Shown here: piece after piece, positions 12,408 to 19,632 of the stretch
Numbering within the stretch: the first letter of the stretch is position 1
Layout: every line of letters starts with the position of its first letter
Origin: a virus
IMG/VR virus record: IMGVR_UViG_3300021963_000582
Span: 1 to 25,932 of that record
Length of the DNA: 25,932 nucleotides
Strand: one strand, 5' to 3'
Notes under the pieces: generated by a model
Databases searched by the model: none
Told to the model about the DNA's origin: nothing
Seen by the model: the letters and a program-made list of their open reading frames with translations, nothing else
Translations under genes and position numbers: made by a program

Positions 12408-13394
12408 ATGGCAATTCCATTAGAGGTAATTCCATATAAACCTTCACCTGGAAATGAAAAACCTGGATATTATGGACCCCCAACTCCAGGTACAGAAACT
12501 GCACCATTTCCTGCTCCAGGAGTTCCTAAACCATCAACAACTACAACATCTGGAACTGGATCTAGTCCGGGAAATGGAACACCAACCCCCGAACAGTCTT
12601 CTCGTGGTCCAACTCCACAGGTAGTTGCAAATGATACAATAATATCAAGATTATTAAAACCAGCATTAACTAGCCATTTTCAGTGTATTTTTAATCCACC
12701 TGATGTTCCTGAGATAAGACAATATTATTTTGATGGGCAAAGTGGTAATGTAATTACTTTACTTTGTTCTGAAGCCTCTCTTCCAGGATCCTCAATATTG
12801 ACAAATGAAATCAATGATGACTATACTGGAATCACTGAAAGAATAGGATACCGCAGGCAATACGATGACCGTGCAGATTTTACTTTCTATGTCGATCACG
12901 GAACTGTAAATGGTGGATATAATGCGATTAAACTTTTTGAAGCGTGGATTAGATATGCTATGGGAGAAACTTCTTACGCTCCAGATGCTAATTATTCTTA
13001 TAGAGTAAGATTTCCAGATGGACCTAAGGAACAAACTGGTGGTCCTGGATATAGAAATGAAATATTCATTCAAAAATTTGAAAGAGATTTAAAATTTGGA
13101 GGAAATTATTTGGAATATGTTTTTGTAAAAGCATACCCAATAAGTATTACATCTATGCCAGTTTCTTATGAAACTTCTTCTCTGCTAAAATGCACAGTAT
13201 CATTTACATATAATCGATATATTTTAAGAGGTTTGGCAAATAAATTAGAATCAGAACCTGCGCCCCCTACACCGGCGCCAGGAATTCCTCAAGATACACA
13301 GTTTGGTGTAGATACTACTGGACAGTTTGGTCAAACTGGGTCTAATTTAAATCAAAATCCTTTTACACTTACTAGAACTGGACCATTCTTTTAG
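12408..13394 (+). CDS. 54: Baseplate tail-tube initiator gp54
   Basis: A 328-aa protein with a proline/threonine-rich, probably disordered first 70 residues and a similar C-terminal tail around a tail-tube-like domain (~75-275): SHFQCIFNPPDVPE, LCSEASLPGSSI, ERIGYRRQYDDRADFTFYVD, KLFEAWIRYAMG, then VKAYPISITSMPVSYETSSL and KCTVSFTYNRY. The I-S-x-x-P-V-S-Y...T-F-x-Y-x-R ending matches T4 gp54 (320 aa), which sits on the baseplate with gp48 and starts tube growth. Another tube-fold virion protein is the alternative. It is divergent from gp4, and no clear plus-strand late promoter is seen in the short gap. Confidence 0.75.
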   Translation: MAIPLEVIPYKPSPGNEKPGYYGPPTPGTETAPFPAPGVPKPSTTTTSGTGSSPGNGTPTPEQSSRGPTPQVVANDTIISRLLKPALTSHFQCIFNPPDVPEIRQYYFDGQSGNVITLLCSEASLPGSSILTNEINDDYTGITERIGYRRQYDDRADFTFYVDHGTVNGGYNAIKLFEAWIRYAMGETSYAPDANYSYRVRFPDGPKEQTGGPGYRNEIFIQKFERDLKFGGNYLEYVFVKAYPISITSMPVSYETSSLLKCTVSFTYNRYILRGLANKLESEPAPPTPAPGIPQDTQFGVDTTGQFGQTGSNLNQNPFTLTRTGPFF

Positions 13395-13442: not shown

Positions 13443-14162
13443 ATGCCTTTACCTAAAATAGCTACGCCAACTTATGAACTTGAGTTGCCTTCAACTGGAC
13501 AAACAATCAAGTATCGCCCTTTCCTTGTAAAGGAAGAAAAACTACTAGTTCTTGCTTTAGAATCCGAAGATACAAAACAAATTACTACTGCAATTAAAAC
13601 TGTTATCAAAAGTTGCATTGAAACAAAAGGAATTAAGGTAGAAACACTTCCTACCTTTGATATTGAATATTTGTTCCTCAACATTCGCGGCAAATCAGTT
13701 GGGGAAGAAATTGAAGTTAGTATTATTTGTCCGGATGATGAAGAAACTACAGTTCCAGTAAAAATTAATGTTGATGACATTAAGGTTCAGAAAAACGAGG
13801 AACATAATAAACAAATTAAACTTGATGATAATATTATGATGGAAATGAAGTATCCATCATTAGAGCAATTTATCAAGAGTAATTTTGATTTCTCTTCGGA
13901 TAATACAATGGAACAATCATTTGAATTGATTGCTTCTTGTGTGGATAAAATTTTCACTGAAGATGAAGTTTGGGCAGCTGCTGATGTGACTAAAAAAGAA
14001 TTGATTGAGTTCTTGGATCAAATGAATTCAATTCAATTTAAAGAAATTGAAAAGTTCTTTGAGACAATGCCTAAACTAGCTCATAACATTAAGGTTAAAA
14101 ATCCTGTAACTGGTGTTCAAAGTGAAGTAACGTTGGAGGGACTCTCAAGTTTTTTCGCATAG
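13443..14162 (+). CDS. 26: Baseplate hub assembly protein gp26 (T4 baseplate family)
   Basis: A 239-aa member of the T4 gp26 base-plate family. The N-terminal YELELPSTGQTIKYRPFLVK and EEKLLVLALESED, then IKTVIKSCIETKGIKVETLP and FDIEYLFLNIRGKSVGEEIE, are the characteristic blocks. The C-terminal third is helical (VWAAADVTKKELIEFLDQMN, IQFKEIEKFFETMPKLAHNI). In T4, gp26 acts with gp51 and gp28 in hub assembly. Here it lies immediately before two tape-measure-like genes, the place of tail assembly chaperones. Its last codons, AGT TTT TTC GCA TAG, hold a slippery T TTT TTC that would shift ribosomes into the next small ORF. Confidence 0.85.
   Translation: MPLPKIATPTYELELPSTGQTIKYRPFLVKEEKLLVLALESEDTKQITTAIKTVIKSCIETKGIKVETLPTFDIEYLFLNIRGKSVGEEIEVSIICPDDEETTVPVKINVDDIKVQKNEEHNKQIKLDDNIMMEMKYPSLEQFIKSNFDFSSDNTMEQSFELIASCVDKIFTEDEVWAAADVTKKELIEFLDQMNSIQFKEIEKFFETMPKLAHNIKVKNPVTGVQSEVTLEGLSSFFA
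14150..14156 (+). other. Candidate -1 frameshift site T TTT TTC
   Basis: The heptamer T TTT TTC is phased X-XXY-YYZ in the gp26 frame, one codon before the gp26 stop. After slipping back one base, reading continues CGC ATA GGA ATG without a stop into the ORF ending at 14341, giving a 299-aa fusion (238 gp26 residues plus 61). Confidence 0.55.
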
Positions 14163-14164
14163 GA

Positions 14165-14341
14165 ATGTCTCATATGGATTTGGAGAATTACTTCAAACTC
14201 AATTTTTCGTTGATGCAGTATCATAAATATTCATTAACAGAGATTGAAAATATGATTCCTTGGGAAAGGGATGTTTATGTTGGGTTATTGAAAAATCATC
14301 TGGAAGAAGAAGAACAAAAAGCACAACAACAAAGGCACTAA
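14165..14341 (+). CDS. Small C-terminal chaperone-type ORF, likely read by -1 frameshift
   Basis: The 58-codon ORF (MSHMDLENYFKLNFSLMQYH, then KYSLTEIENMIPWERDVYVG) lies in the -1 frame relative to gp26 and is open back through the gp26 stop to the slippery site. The motif MIPWERDVYVGLLKNHLEEE resembles the 'PWER..Y..LL' helix of short proteins found before phage tape measures and the T part of lambda GT-type chaperones. As a free gene it has poor signals: ATG 14165 has AGGA directly adjacent; ATG 14174 has the same AGGA nine bases upstream and could be used. By position it may replace T4 gp51 functionally, but no sequence match is claimed. It ends one base before the next ATG. Confidence 0.7.
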   Translation: MSHMDLENYFKLNFSLMQYHKYSLTEIENMIPWERDVYVGLLKNHLEEEEQKAQQQRH

Positions 14342-16567
14342 ATGAACCCAGTATCCGAAAAAATTGATGAAAGAATTTTAAGGCTACTGGGTCTTACCGA
14401 TGTTTTTGACTTAGATTATGATACTTATATGACGCTTCTGAAAGAAGCGTTAGTTTCTGGTTCTCGCAGATTGCCGCTGGAAGAATTGGCACTACTTGCA
14501 GATGAAAGAAAAAGAGTAAGAGGAAAAAAAGGAAGATTAAAACCAAAACCAAAAAAGATAACTGCGGGCAGTGTAGCGACTACTAAATTTTTAAAACCCT
14601 CAGTTCAACCAATATCAACTCCTTTACTTGCACCTGCGGGTGGAGTTCAGGCACCAGAAGTTCAACCTGTAAATTTAACACCACTTCAGGGTCCTTTAGA
14701 ATCAATTAAAAAAATCTTATCTTCCTTTTTAGATTTTAGAAAAGATGCAAGTGAAGATGAAAGAAAAAATTATGAAGAGAAGAGGAGACAGAAAAGAGAA
14801 GAAGGTCTTGAAAATGTAAAGAAAGGAATGTCCGCAGTATCTGATGCGGTAAAGAAATTTGTTTCTCCTTTCCAAAATATTATGGACCGAATAATGAGAT
14901 TTATTTTCTTTACCTTATTAGGTAGAGCATTCACTCAACTTATTGATTGGTTTAGAGATCCAAAAAATAAAAAAAAGGTTGAAAGTCTAAAGCGTTTTAT
15001 AAAAGATTGGTGGCCTTCTTTAGTTGGGGCTTTTGTATTATTCTTTACCCCATTCGGAAAATTTGTAAGGGGAATTTTAAGAATTGTTGGTGGTTTGACT
15101 GGAAAACTTATTAGTGCAATACCAAGAATTGCTGGTGCAGTTAAAGGTCTTAGTAGAGTCTTACTGAATCCTTGGGTTGCAGTACCTGCTGCGGCAGTTG
15201 GTTTAGCAGTAGCCGCTAATGAGATTACTGGTCAGAGAAAGGCAGCATCGGTTCAAGCAGAAAATAAAGCAAAAGCACAAACTGGACAAGGTTTAGGTGT
15301 TCAGGGAACTGATACTATGACTGACACTACTCCTAGTGTTGGTAGTATGGGTCCAACAACTCCATATGGAATGCTTCAAGGTGCTGCTCGTGGTGGTCCT
15401 GTGATGCACGGGTATGGTGGCATTGATCAAAATACGGGACAAAGAGTATCTGGTTTTGGTCCAGACACTCAATTGATTGCAGCAATGCCTGGAGAGGTTG
15501 TTATAAACAAACCAACTGTTGATGCACTTGGTGCAGATACTTTCCTTTCTCTTAACAAATATTACGGTGGTTCTGGTGCTAACCAACCTCGCGTTGGTAG
15601 ATTTGCTTTTAGGTCAGGTGGAATTGTTGGAATGCAAGGTGGCGGAAGCACCAAAGTAAGAGCAGAAAACCCAAGAATGAATCCGAGAGGAAATGAATTT
15701 TCTCACGGAAATCAAACAGTAAAAAATTCACTATTGCAATATATTCAAGGAGCTCAACAAAGATTAACTGACAAAGCAGGGCAGATTAATACTAATATTG
15801 GTGGATGGTTTAACGGACTTTTTCCAGCAAAGAAAGAAACTTTTGGATTTGAAAGCCCAGGATCTATTCCAGGAACTCCAATCGAAAATTATAAAATGCC
15901 TGGATTTGATTTAAAGCGATGGAATCAATTACGTCAATTTAGAGAAACTCCGCAAGAAGAATATAAATCAAATCCAAAAAGTCCAAAACTTAGATATGCT
16001 CCAGGAACGTATCATTTTAGACCTGGAATAGATAAACCATTGTCTTTACAAGGTGGTGGATTAGTTAGAAGACAAGGTGGTGGAAAAATATCTGGTTCAA
16101 TAACTCCAAAAGAAGTATGGGGTGCAAAGTATAGATCTGCATCTGGAGGCGGATTTGCTTTAAAGAAATATTATGGAGGAGGTTTGATTAGAGAAAATAC
16201 TGGAATGAATGTTAAAGGAGCAACTGCAGACAGACAAAGAGTTGATTTGCGACCAGGAGAGTATGTTCTTCCAGTCGATACAGTATCCCGTCTTGGAATT
16301 TCTTTGGTTGATAAACTTGTAGCACTAACGGATAGTAATTCGAATCCGGCAAAACTTGGAAAGAGGAACGTAAATAAACCAAAGATTACACCACTCTCTG
16401 GAAGACAAAGTGGTGTAATAACCTTACCCCCAATTGAAATGTCATCTGGAGGAGGAAAAACAGGGCCCATACCTATAGGGTCTAGAGTTGCATCTTTTTC
16501 TGCAACATCTCCAAGTGGTGATGAGGTAAGATCTATGAACGCTAGTATTTACGGGATTGTAGGGTAA
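14342..16567 (+). CDS. Tape-measure-like virion protein (741 aa)
   Basis: A large tail protein in the place of the T4 hub/tape-measure gene gp29. Residues 1-60 are a helical domain (MNPVSEKIDERILRLLG, then EALVSGSRRLPLEELALLAD), 60-110 are linker, 115-175 are charged coiled helix, and 180-295 hold several hydrophobic segments (DRIMRFIFFTLLGRAF 182-197, GAFVLFFTPFGKFV, an Ala/Val stretch near 275-292). The C-terminal half is Gly-rich with repeated GGG blocks and two PGE-[VY]-V segments (PGEVVIN 383-389, PGEYVLP 638-644), a motif common in C-terminal parts of tape measure proteins. It shares the hydrophobic module with the next protein. The stop overlaps the next ATG (TAATG). The exact role, tape measure or hub, is inference. 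Confidence 0.7.
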   Translation: MNPVSEKIDERILRLLGLTDVFDLDYDTYMTLLKEALVSGSRRLPLEELALLADERKRVRGKKGRLKPKPKKITAGSVATTKFLKPSVQPISTPLLAPAGGVQAPEVQPVNLTPLQGPLESIKKILSSFLDFRKDASEDERKNYEEKRRQKREEGLENVKKGMSAVSDAVKKFVSPFQNIMDRIMRFIFFTLLGRAFTQLIDWFRDPKNKKKVESLKRFIKDWWPSLVGAFVLFFTPFGKFVRGILRIVGGLTGKLISAIPRIAGAVKGLSRVLLNPWVAVPAAAVGLAVAANEITGQRKAASVQAENKAKAQTGQGLGVQGTDTMTDTTPSVGSMGPTTPYGMLQGAARGGPVMHGYGGIDQNTGQRVSGFGPDTQLIAAMPGEVVINKPTVDALGADTFLSLNKYYGGSGANQPRVGRFAFRSGGIVGMQGGGSTKVRAENPRMNPRGNEFSHGNQTVKNSLLQYIQGAQQRLTDKAGQINTNIGGWFNGLFPAKKETFGFESPGSIPGTPIENYKMPGFDLKRWNQLRQFRETPQEEYKSNPKSPKLRYAPGTYHFRPGIDKPLSLQGGGLVRRQGGGKISGSITPKEVWGAKYRSASGGGFALKKYYGGGLIRENTGMNVKGATADRQRVDLRPGEYVLPVDTVSRLGISLVDKLVALTDSNSNPAKLGKRNVNKPKITPLSGRQSGVITLPPIEMSSGGGKTGPIPIGSRVASFSATSPSGDEVRSMNASIYGIVG

Positions 16568-19500
16568 TGGCAATTAACACTCAAAAGTTATTACCATCTG
16601 CAAAAGGAGGCGCATTAGTTAAATTTAATGCGGGTGGAGCATCATCATCTCTTACTATCAAAAGAAAGTCCATTGATGCTAATAAGTTAGCGTTACTATC
16701 CCAAAAAAGAAATGAGCAAAATGTAAGCATCATTCAGAAGTCTTTAATTGATGTTGATAGTTTATTAAAATCAGTTCTTACAGAAGACCAACAAACTGAA
16801 AGAACAAAAAGACAAATACGTGATCAAGAAGAAGCAGAAAAGAGAGAAACCAAACTAGAAACACCAAAAGAAACAAAGAAGTTTAAACTTCCTGGTGTGT
16901 CTCTTCCTGGAATGGGTTTTCTTGATAGAATAAAGAGATTCTTATTCTTCACTGCTCTTGGTTGGTTGTTTAACACATTCCAGAAAGAACTTCCAAAGTT
17001 AGAAGGAATAGTAAAAGTTATTATGCCAATTTATGGTGTTGTTGAAAATATATTTAAGTTTATTTTAGAATCAACAGTTAACTTTATAGACCGTGCATAT
17101 GAAACTTATGACAAACTTCGTGGTCTTGTAAAGACTGTTGGGGGAGAAAATGCTCAAGCAGAATTTGATAAAATATCAGGGAAGTTAAACGAATATATTA
17201 ATTATGTTTTGATTGGCGGAATGGCACTTACTGGTGCTATTAATACCTTTGCACAGAATGCAAGAAATTATAAACCACCAAAACCACCAGCGCCAAAACC
17301 TCCAGTACCAAGAGGTCCTAGAGGTCCATTAGAAAGAACGATAACAAGACCCGCACAAGCTGCTGCTATAAGGGCATCTAGAAATATCATCGGCAAACAG
17401 GCAACTAAACAAATATTGAGAACGATAAAAGGACCTCTTTCCAGAGTTCCTCTTGTCGGTGGGTTGATTGAATTTGGTTTGTCTTGGGCACTTGGAGACT
17501 CTCCAGGTAAAGCAGCATTTAGAGGAGTTGGATCTACTTTATTGGGTGGCGTTGGAATGGCAATTGGTGCGTTCCCTCCACTATTACCTTTTGGTGGTCC
17601 ACTCATTGGTAGTTTTTTAGGTGGATGGGCAGGTGCAGAACTTGGGGGACTACTATATGATGTTCTCTTTACAAATAAAAAACCAGCAATACCCACACAA
17701 AAACAAAGAGGTGGTGGTAAAGTAATCAAACGCTATGCAACAGGTGGCCAAGTTGTTGGTGAGCGTGGAAGAACACTTACAATTAGATCAACAAAAAAAG
17801 TATTTTTACCTGAACAAAAATCACAACCAGGTAAAGATGTTGGTGGGAAAAATAAAATTAAACAATTATACCCAGACCCATCAACAAAACTTAGCGAAGC
17901 TGATTGGGAATTAGCTGGTTATCCCTTAGTACCAAAGCCCAAAGATAATGAGAAACCAAAATATCAGGATTATTTAAAAGAATGGGAATCTAGAAAAAAA
18001 GAACCAAATGGTTTTAGAGCACTTACTGGAGTTTCTGATGTCTTGAAGGATATTCCTTATGGACTTGGTGCATTGATGGGTGGGGCAGTTGATATTGCAC
18101 TTGGACAAAATCTAGCTCCGAATACTATTAAATCCTCTGTGAATGCATTAGTTTCGTTGTTTTCGCCAATAATTTCTTCAGCAAAGGAAATGTCTCAAGA
18201 AGTTTATGGTGCAAGAAATGGAATGCAAATAGGAAGGACAGGAGGAATATCTAAAACAGATGAATTGAATGAATCTCTTAAAAAAATGTTGTTTGATGGG
18301 ATACAGAAAAAAATTAATACTGCTTTATTAGAGGTTAAAAAACAGTTATCCTTAAAAAAAGAAGAAAAATATACTGCAGAAGAATATGCGAAAACTGGAG
18401 GCGGCGGTAGATATACTCCACCATCACAACAAGAAAGATTCCCAGAAGGTCCAACTGGCAAAAATGGAAGATACAAACCAGAAGAGTTAATGAAGGTTGG
18501 ACCTTTAGCAATTCCTGCGGATTATAAAGATTGGTATGGTAATAATGCATATCTAAGAAAGAGTGATGCTGGTCCAGCATTTATAAAAGCAAAACAGGCT
18601 GCTGCAAAAGAAAAAGTATCCTTTGTAATTAATAGTGCATATAGAAGTTATGAACACCAAGACTTTATGGTAAAAAGTGGAAAATATGCAGTTATTGCAC
18701 CAGCAGGGAAATCTAGTCACGGTGATGGAACTGCGGTAGACATTGAAGTTGGAACTCCTGGATGGCAATGGTTGAAAAAAAATGGACTAGATTACGGATG
18801 GAAATGGATGCAATATGAGGAAGATGAAGTCCATTTTGCATATGTTGGTGGTGGAAAGTTTGAAAAGACACAACAAATACCAAAACAAAAACCTACTACA
18901 ACTCCGACAAAACCACCACAGTCACCTTCATCACCAAATACAAAAACAGCAGAGGCATCTTGGTACGGTCCTGGTTTTTATGGGAATAGAACCGCAGATG
19001 GAACAAAGTTACAAAGAAATAGTATGTGGGTGGCACATAAAACCCTACCATTTGGAACCAAAGTTAAATTTACATATAGAGGAAAAACTGTAACACTACT
19101 TGTTAAAGATAGAGGACCATTTTATGGTAATAGAGAGTGGGACTTTACTGAAGCAGCTGCCGAAGCAATTGGATTAAAAACAGGTCCAAATAGTGGAACT
19201 GGTGTAGTTGAATATCAGATTCTTGAGCTTGGTAAAAGTGCATCAATAACACAAGAACAAGTTGACAAGATAGCAGGACTAAAACCTTTTGATATGGAAA
19301 GTATTTTACCGATGGGTGGTTTTTTTAGTGAACCTCTTAATCCAAGTAAAGTATTTTCATTACCATCAAAGGATACTAACATACCATTTTTAAGTGATGC
19401 GGAGTTGTCTCCTGAAAGTGAAAATTATATTCCTAAACAATCTAATGTAAAGGATACATCTTCTCTTAAAACATATCCTACTTATTCATATGAAGGAACG

Positions 19501-19632
19501 ATTGCAATTCAACCAATAATTTATACGATTACCAAAACAGTTCCTGTTCCAACTAGCGGTAATAAATCAACTACATTTACTGTTTCTGGTGGTGTAAATA
19601 ATAGTAATATGCAAAGTCTAAGCAGAGGATAA
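16567..19632 (+). CDS. Tail protein with M15 peptidase and RlpA-like cell-wall domains (1021 aa)
   Basis: The N-terminal half is tape-measure-like: charged coiled region (~75-105), hydrophobic module DRIKRFLFFTALGWLF (120-135), Pro-rich linker (236-253), Gly-rich membrane-active-looking segments (~296-368). At ~645-765 lies an M15/VanY-type zinc peptidase: INSAYRSYEHQ, SSHGDGTAVDIEVG (zinc H718, D725) and DEVHF (H756), with D753 three residues before the last histidine, the position of the catalytic Asp in phage T5 endolysin. At ~795-890 is an RlpA/expansin-type double-psi barrel: ASWYGPGFYGNRTADGTKL and VKDRGPFYGN (D848). The Glu used by RlpA glycosidases in TA-x-G-E is Thr here. It probably opens the host peptidoglycan at DNA entry, replacing the lysozyme of T4 gp5. 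Domain calls are firm; function is inferred. Confidence 0.85.
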   Translation: MAINTQKLLPSAKGGALVKFNAGGASSSLTIKRKSIDANKLALLSQKRNEQNVSIIQKSLIDVDSLLKSVLTEDQQTERTKRQIRDQEEAEKRETKLETPKETKKFKLPGVSLPGMGFLDRIKRFLFFTALGWLFNTFQKELPKLEGIVKVIMPIYGVVENIFKFILESTVNFIDRAYETYDKLRGLVKTVGGENAQAEFDKISGKLNEYINYVLIGGMALTGAINTFAQNARNYKPPKPPAPKPPVPRGPRGPLERTITRPAQAAAIRASRNIIGKQATKQILRTIKGPLSRVPLVGGLIEFGLSWALGDSPGKAAFRGVGSTLLGGVGMAIGAFPPLLPFGGPLIGSFLGGWAGAELGGLLYDVLFTNKKPAIPTQKQRGGGKVIKRYATGGQVVGERGRTLTIRSTKKVFLPEQKSQPGKDVGGKNKIKQLYPDPSTKLSEADWELAGYPLVPKPKDNEKPKYQDYLKEWESRKKEPNGFRALTGVSDVLKDIPYGLGALMGGAVDIALGQNLAPNTIKSSVNALVSLFSPIISSAKEMSQEVYGARNGMQIGRTGGISKTDELNESLKKMLFDGIQKKINTALLEVKKQLSLKKEEKYTAEEYAKTGGGGRYTPPSQQERFPEGPTGKNGRYKPEELMKVGPLAIPADYKDWYGNNAYLRKSDAGPAFIKAKQAAAKEKVSFVINSAYRSYEHQDFMVKSGKYAVIAPAGKSSHGDGTAVDIEVGTPGWQWLKKNGLDYGWKWMQYEEDEVHFAYVGGGKFEKTQQIPKQKPTTTPTKPPQSPSSPNTKTAEASWYGPGFYGNRTADGTKLQRNSMWVAHKTLPFGTKVKFTYRGKTVTLLVKDRGPFYGNREWDFTEAAAEAIGLKTGPNSGTGVVEYQILELGKSASITQEQVDKIAGLKPFDMESILPMGGFFSEPLNPSKVFSLPSKDTNIPFLSDAELSPESENYIPKQSNVKDTSSLKTYPTYSYEGTIAIQPIIYTITKTVPVPTSGNKSTTFTVSGGVNNSNMQSLSRG

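Follow-up and report, generated by a model that had tools for sequence, protein, structure and literature searches.

The heptamer of phage lambda is G GGA AAG, and the -1 frameshift of E. coli dnaX uses A_AAA_AAG, preceded at about 10 nt by an SD-like sequence and followed by a strong hairpin. Among T4-like phages, frameshifting is reportedly conserved in several groups, and T4 is said to use genes 26 and 51. In lambda G/GT, coating of the tape measure falls to the short form and recruitment of the tube protein to the long one (PMC5009743). The chaperone genes of T4-like phages were identified by Vladimirov, Gautam & Davidson 2022 (Virology 566:9-15); the system, as cited from that report, belongs to the same gene family as the one treated here and follows the same logic, with a short chaperone and a long one carrying an added C-terminal domain. 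In the passages that cite this work, the phage Adele paper (PMC12846349) mentions poly-T slippery sites in TAC-N genes of T4-like phages, and the PRFect paper (PMC10885494) mentions that some T4-like phages do without frameshifting and have two chaperone genes, a short one and a long, fused one. The original prediction for our locus considered a gp26/gp26-fusion pair in T4-like cyanophages to be a strategy not yet described. This claim has to be withdrawn, since both papers refer, in those passages, to the 2022 report on T4-like phages: the strategy is already reported for some of them, and the present locus extends and documents it for cyanophages.

The window, that is, the whole stretch of DNA analysed, comprises 25,932 nucleotides of the IMG/VR virus record IMGVR_UViG_3300021963_000582. 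On its plus strand, gp26 (239 aa, 13443-14162) matches PF12322 (E 9e-77) and phrog_150, and profile matches place it between a tail tube gene (12408-13394; phrog_45, PF23849) and a tape-measure-like gene (14342-16567, plus strand; phrog_35029, E 1e-52, with weaker matches to tape measure profiles). The 3' end of gene 26, read directly from the sequence, is GAG GGA CTC TCA AGT TTT TTC GCA TAG. It contains the slippery heptamer T_TTT_TTC (14150-14156, plus strand) in exact phase with the gp26 frame, and the zero-frame stop TAG (14160-14162) lies one codon past it. As had been anticipated, the -1 frame is open across this stop and continues without interruption through a small ORF up to the TAA at 14339-14341, immediately followed by the ATG of the next gene at 14342. 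After the slip, the -1 frame reads F F R I G M S H M D L E N Y F and onwards, an extension of 62 residues (FRIGMSHMDLENYF...; 14153-14341, plus strand) which we read as a TAC-C domain made up of the small ORF, or 'gp51', and the -1-frame codons upstream of it. Two profiles match the small ORF: phrog_634 (E 3e-28), whose annotation derives from T4 gp51, and phrog_150, the gp26 profile, over its 40 C-terminal positions (240-280); in named phages the extension was recognized by tblastn starting from the first F. From its first ATG it is called as an ORF of 58 codons (14165-14341, plus strand), although on our reading the true start of the gene is elsewhere. Further along, the window contains a gene of 1021 aa (16567-19632) with VanY-like peptidase and lytic transglycosylase (DPBB_1) domains, apparently a tail protein carrying two cell-wall enzymes.

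We consider it very probable that -1 slippage on T_TTT_TTC, probably assisted by an SD-like sequence, produces a TAC-NC fusion and provides this T4-like cyanophage with a short and a long tail chaperone. Gene 26 would encode the short chaperone, TAC-N; at its end, a minority of ribosomes in the cell would slip back one base on the heptamer, bypass the TAG and read the small ORF, giving the gp26-gp51 fusion. By analogy with lambda G/GT, we infer that the tape measure protein, whose gene comes next, is coated by the short form, and that the less abundant long form uses its TAC-C tail to recruit the tube protein. The two loci share an in-phase -1 heptamer at the end of the chaperone gene, a short downstream fusion domain and a tape measure gene in the next position. 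However, their heptamers differ, and the gp26 of the window is larger, its chaperone-like N-terminal domain being followed by a further region. The lambda-like -1 frameshift ahead of the tape-measure genes that had been proposed from the window is well supported by comparative evidence.

The original prediction had suggested an alignment of the junctions between gp26 and the small ORF in many relatives. We assembled 255 sequences, namely the window, IMG/VR loci and named phages, and found T_TTT_TTC or T_TTT_TTT 0-3 codons ahead of the gp26 stop in 243 of them; in six others the heptamer lies 8 codons ahead of the stop, and in five the contig ends before the end of the gp26 gene. Of the approximately 250 relatives in which the end of the gene can be read, all but one keep the heptamer, its phase and a -1 frame that stays open into this small domain. 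The sole exception (L169, 1501-2199), an HTVC008M-like contig with a gp26 that is 99% identical, presents a stop within gp26, perhaps a sequencing error. The 80 closest IMG/VR loci show no variation in the heptamer, and in all of them a single codon separates it from the stop and the -1 frame is open. This spacing of one codon is also found in 147 of the 166 relatives of a non-redundant set, reduced from the relatives and used for the codon, start and motif counts below. Nearly all the named T4-like phages examined have an in-phase heptamer and an open -1 frame: T_TTT_TTC or T_TTT_TTT is kept in S-PM2, Syn9, P-HM1, P-TIM68, S-CRM01, Pelagibacter HTVC008M and Sinorhizobium phiM7, as well as in Stenotrophomonas DLP6, Vibrio D482, Aeromonas CC2 and 65, Acidovorax ACP17 and Pseudomonas Milchi, and Rhizobium I34 has the variant T_TTT_TTG. 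A search of IMG/VR with the gp26 of Vibrio D482 found no relatives. In two Vibrio Ackermannviridae relatives there is no X_XXY_YYZ at the end of gp26, and GTT TTT CGC or CTT TTT CGC is present instead. In these two homologues (L275, 1054-1946; L279, 1066-1994) the TAC-C domain is still in the -1 frame, behind an overlapping TAATG, an arrangement that might allow a P-site slip on T_TTT or reinitiation at the TAATG.

It should be noted that the heptamer is weak evidence when a single genome is considered, because, over 7101 codon positions, the genes of the window have X_XXY_YYZ in phase 59 times; TTTTTTC is found among these sites once. Conservation across the relatives is decisive on this point, and a chance occurrence of the heptamer was rejected. 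Codon choice gives the same direction in the non-redundant set, where expected counts were taken from the codon use of each gene. The codon before the two phenylalanines ends in T in 166 of 166 relatives (97 expected), TTT encodes the first Phe in all 166 (114 expected) and TTC the second in 156 (52 expected); kinship was ignored in these counts, so their significance is overstated, but the direction of the skew is not in doubt. Of the 168 Phe-Phe pairs that these genes contain away from the slip site, just 3 share its form.

As six consecutive T are in principle able to cause slippage of RNA polymerase, and T_TTT_TTT is present in some relatives, the run could act at transcription rather than on the ribosome. 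Nevertheless, the run has just six T in 156 of the 166 relatives, and two features point to ribosomes: the constraint on codon choice at T_TTT_TTC, which is specific to one phase, and an SD-like element spaced as in dnaX; we regard transcriptional slippage as very unlikely. The element in question is GGAGGG (14135-14140, plus strand), located 9 nt 5' of the heptamer, in frame and within conserved Glu-Gly codons of gp26. SD-like motifs are present in the 14 nt upstream of the heptamer in 143 of the 166 relatives, compared with 8.8% of control windows. The conserved Glu is encoded by GAG in 104 of 140 cases (42 expected), and where GAA is used instead, the following Gly codon is in most cases GGG or GGA, so that AGGG or AGGA is preserved. 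Glu-Gly codons are SD-like in 96% of cases at the site versus 64% elsewhere in gp26 (p 1e-9, a value uncorrected for relatedness). From this enrichment and codon skew, the element probably helps ribosomal frameshifting as a dnaX-like stimulator, and its conservation is possibly a new detail. The window shares with dnaX the SD-like sequence on the upstream side of a slippery heptamer, but it differs in the heptamer and in its downstream RNA, which is unremarkable.

As regards this downstream RNA, in the group as a whole it folds on average better than shuffled sequences (mean z -1.9), which stretches upstream (0.04) and further downstream (-0.44) do not or hardly do, whereas the RNA of the window past the site folds no better than its shuffles (z 0.21). 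No consensus structure was found downstream of the site with RNAalifold. In a hairpin drawn by hand for the clade of the window, both partners vary at 7 of the 8 pairs, but only 73% of the cells are paired, and the window copy does not fit it. A hairpin would be lineage-specific at best, and for the window itself it was dropped on account of the z of 0.21 and the lack of fit. Some relatives (L029, L033 and L042) have, centred on a CATATG palindrome just past the slip site, long hairpins of up to 13 base pairs, and the corresponding stretch of the window (14156-14190) lacks this hairpin.

Another aspect to consider is whether the small ORF could stand as a gene of its own, translated by reinitiation at ATG 14165 or 14174 after the gp26 stop, with the heptamer being incidental. 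Public records do annotate it as a separate gp51, and the gp26 stop and the start of the small ORF are close together. Its start signals had been described as weak; there is no SD for ATG 14165, and ATG 14174 is preceded by AGGA at 9 nt. AGGA or AGGG is located 9 nt before the second ATG in nine close relatives as well. Because of this AGGA, a separately started product of 55 aa from ATG 14174 is possible in the window in addition to the fusion. However, in 56 of the 166 relatives ATG is absent from the first 12 codons of the -1 frame and first appears 17-35 codons in, within the conserved domain, and an SD-like sequence for any early start is present in only 13 of the 166, the window included, which argues that separate initiation is not the general mechanism. 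Furthermore, conserved -1-frame residues (FFRIALSHDSLENHY and similar) begin ahead of any start codon, and a separate start leaves the invariant in-phase heptamer unexplained, so that we hold this explanation to be very unlikely. In the cyanophage records inspected, gp51 is annotated separately as 'baseplate hub assembly catalyst', and in some cases its start is placed within the domain. Among the named phages, HTVC008M, Syn9 and Milchi have their annotated gp51 start well inside the -1-frame domain. Under the frameshift reading, the annotated cyanophage gp51 would usually be the tail end of the gene 26 frameshift product, and the corrected reading would fix the annotation in several hundred phage records.

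The structure of gp26 was modelled with AlphaFold2 (pLDDT 87), and its N-terminal domain was compared with the PDB using VIA-align. The three best matches, with moderate Z values, were 3fgx (Z 7.9), 2ob9 (Z 7.8) and 3klu (Z 7.4), and the next one had a Z of 5.0. The entry 2ob9 is the HK97 tail assembly chaperone and 3klu is YqbN; 3fgx and 3klu are also counted among the chaperone relatives. Foldseek against the PDB gave no significant match for gp26 (E 0.58) or gp51. The model suggests a putative function of gp26 as a tail assembly chaperone.

In T4, gp26 and gp51 both match PF12322 over the entire length of that domain, and gp51 in addition spans positions 13-280 of the 282 of phrog_150 and matches phrog_634. 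The gp26 profile aligns to residues 14-200 of T4-type gp51 (E 2e-8), ending at the Phe-Phe junction. Judged by their sequences, T4 gp26 and gp51 are paralogues, gp26 corresponding to the short product and gp51 to the fusion of gp26 with the small ORF, the latter because of its full-length PF12322 match together with phrog_634 and the end of the profile at the Phe-Phe junction. The original prediction had T4 with separate gp26 and gp51; however, gp51 is not unrelated to gp26, as it consists of PF12322 and the small-ORF domain in frame. T4 gp26 is thus homologous to TAC-N and T4 gp51 to the whole cyanophage fusion, but genes 26 and 51 are separate and divergently transcribed, and no frameshift is needed. 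Cyanophages would make by frameshifting what T4 makes from two genes.

We propose tentatively, giving it slightly less than an even chance, that the frameshift is ancestral to most T4-like groups, with a conserved in-frame anti-SD stimulator and lineage-specific hairpins adjusting chaperone dosage in the manner of dnaX, and that the T4 lineage later split the products into the paralogues 26 and 51. With the corrected annotation of gp51, the long-unexplained gp26 and gp51 of T4 would both be given the function of chaperones of the tape measure, and these phages would offer a natural series for studying the passage from a recoded gene pair to two genes, or the reverse. In Pectobacterium phage POP12 (L083, 928-2203) one strand carries both genes, a full-length gp51 first and gp26 after it, with an overlap of 14 bases, unlike the divergent pair of T4.
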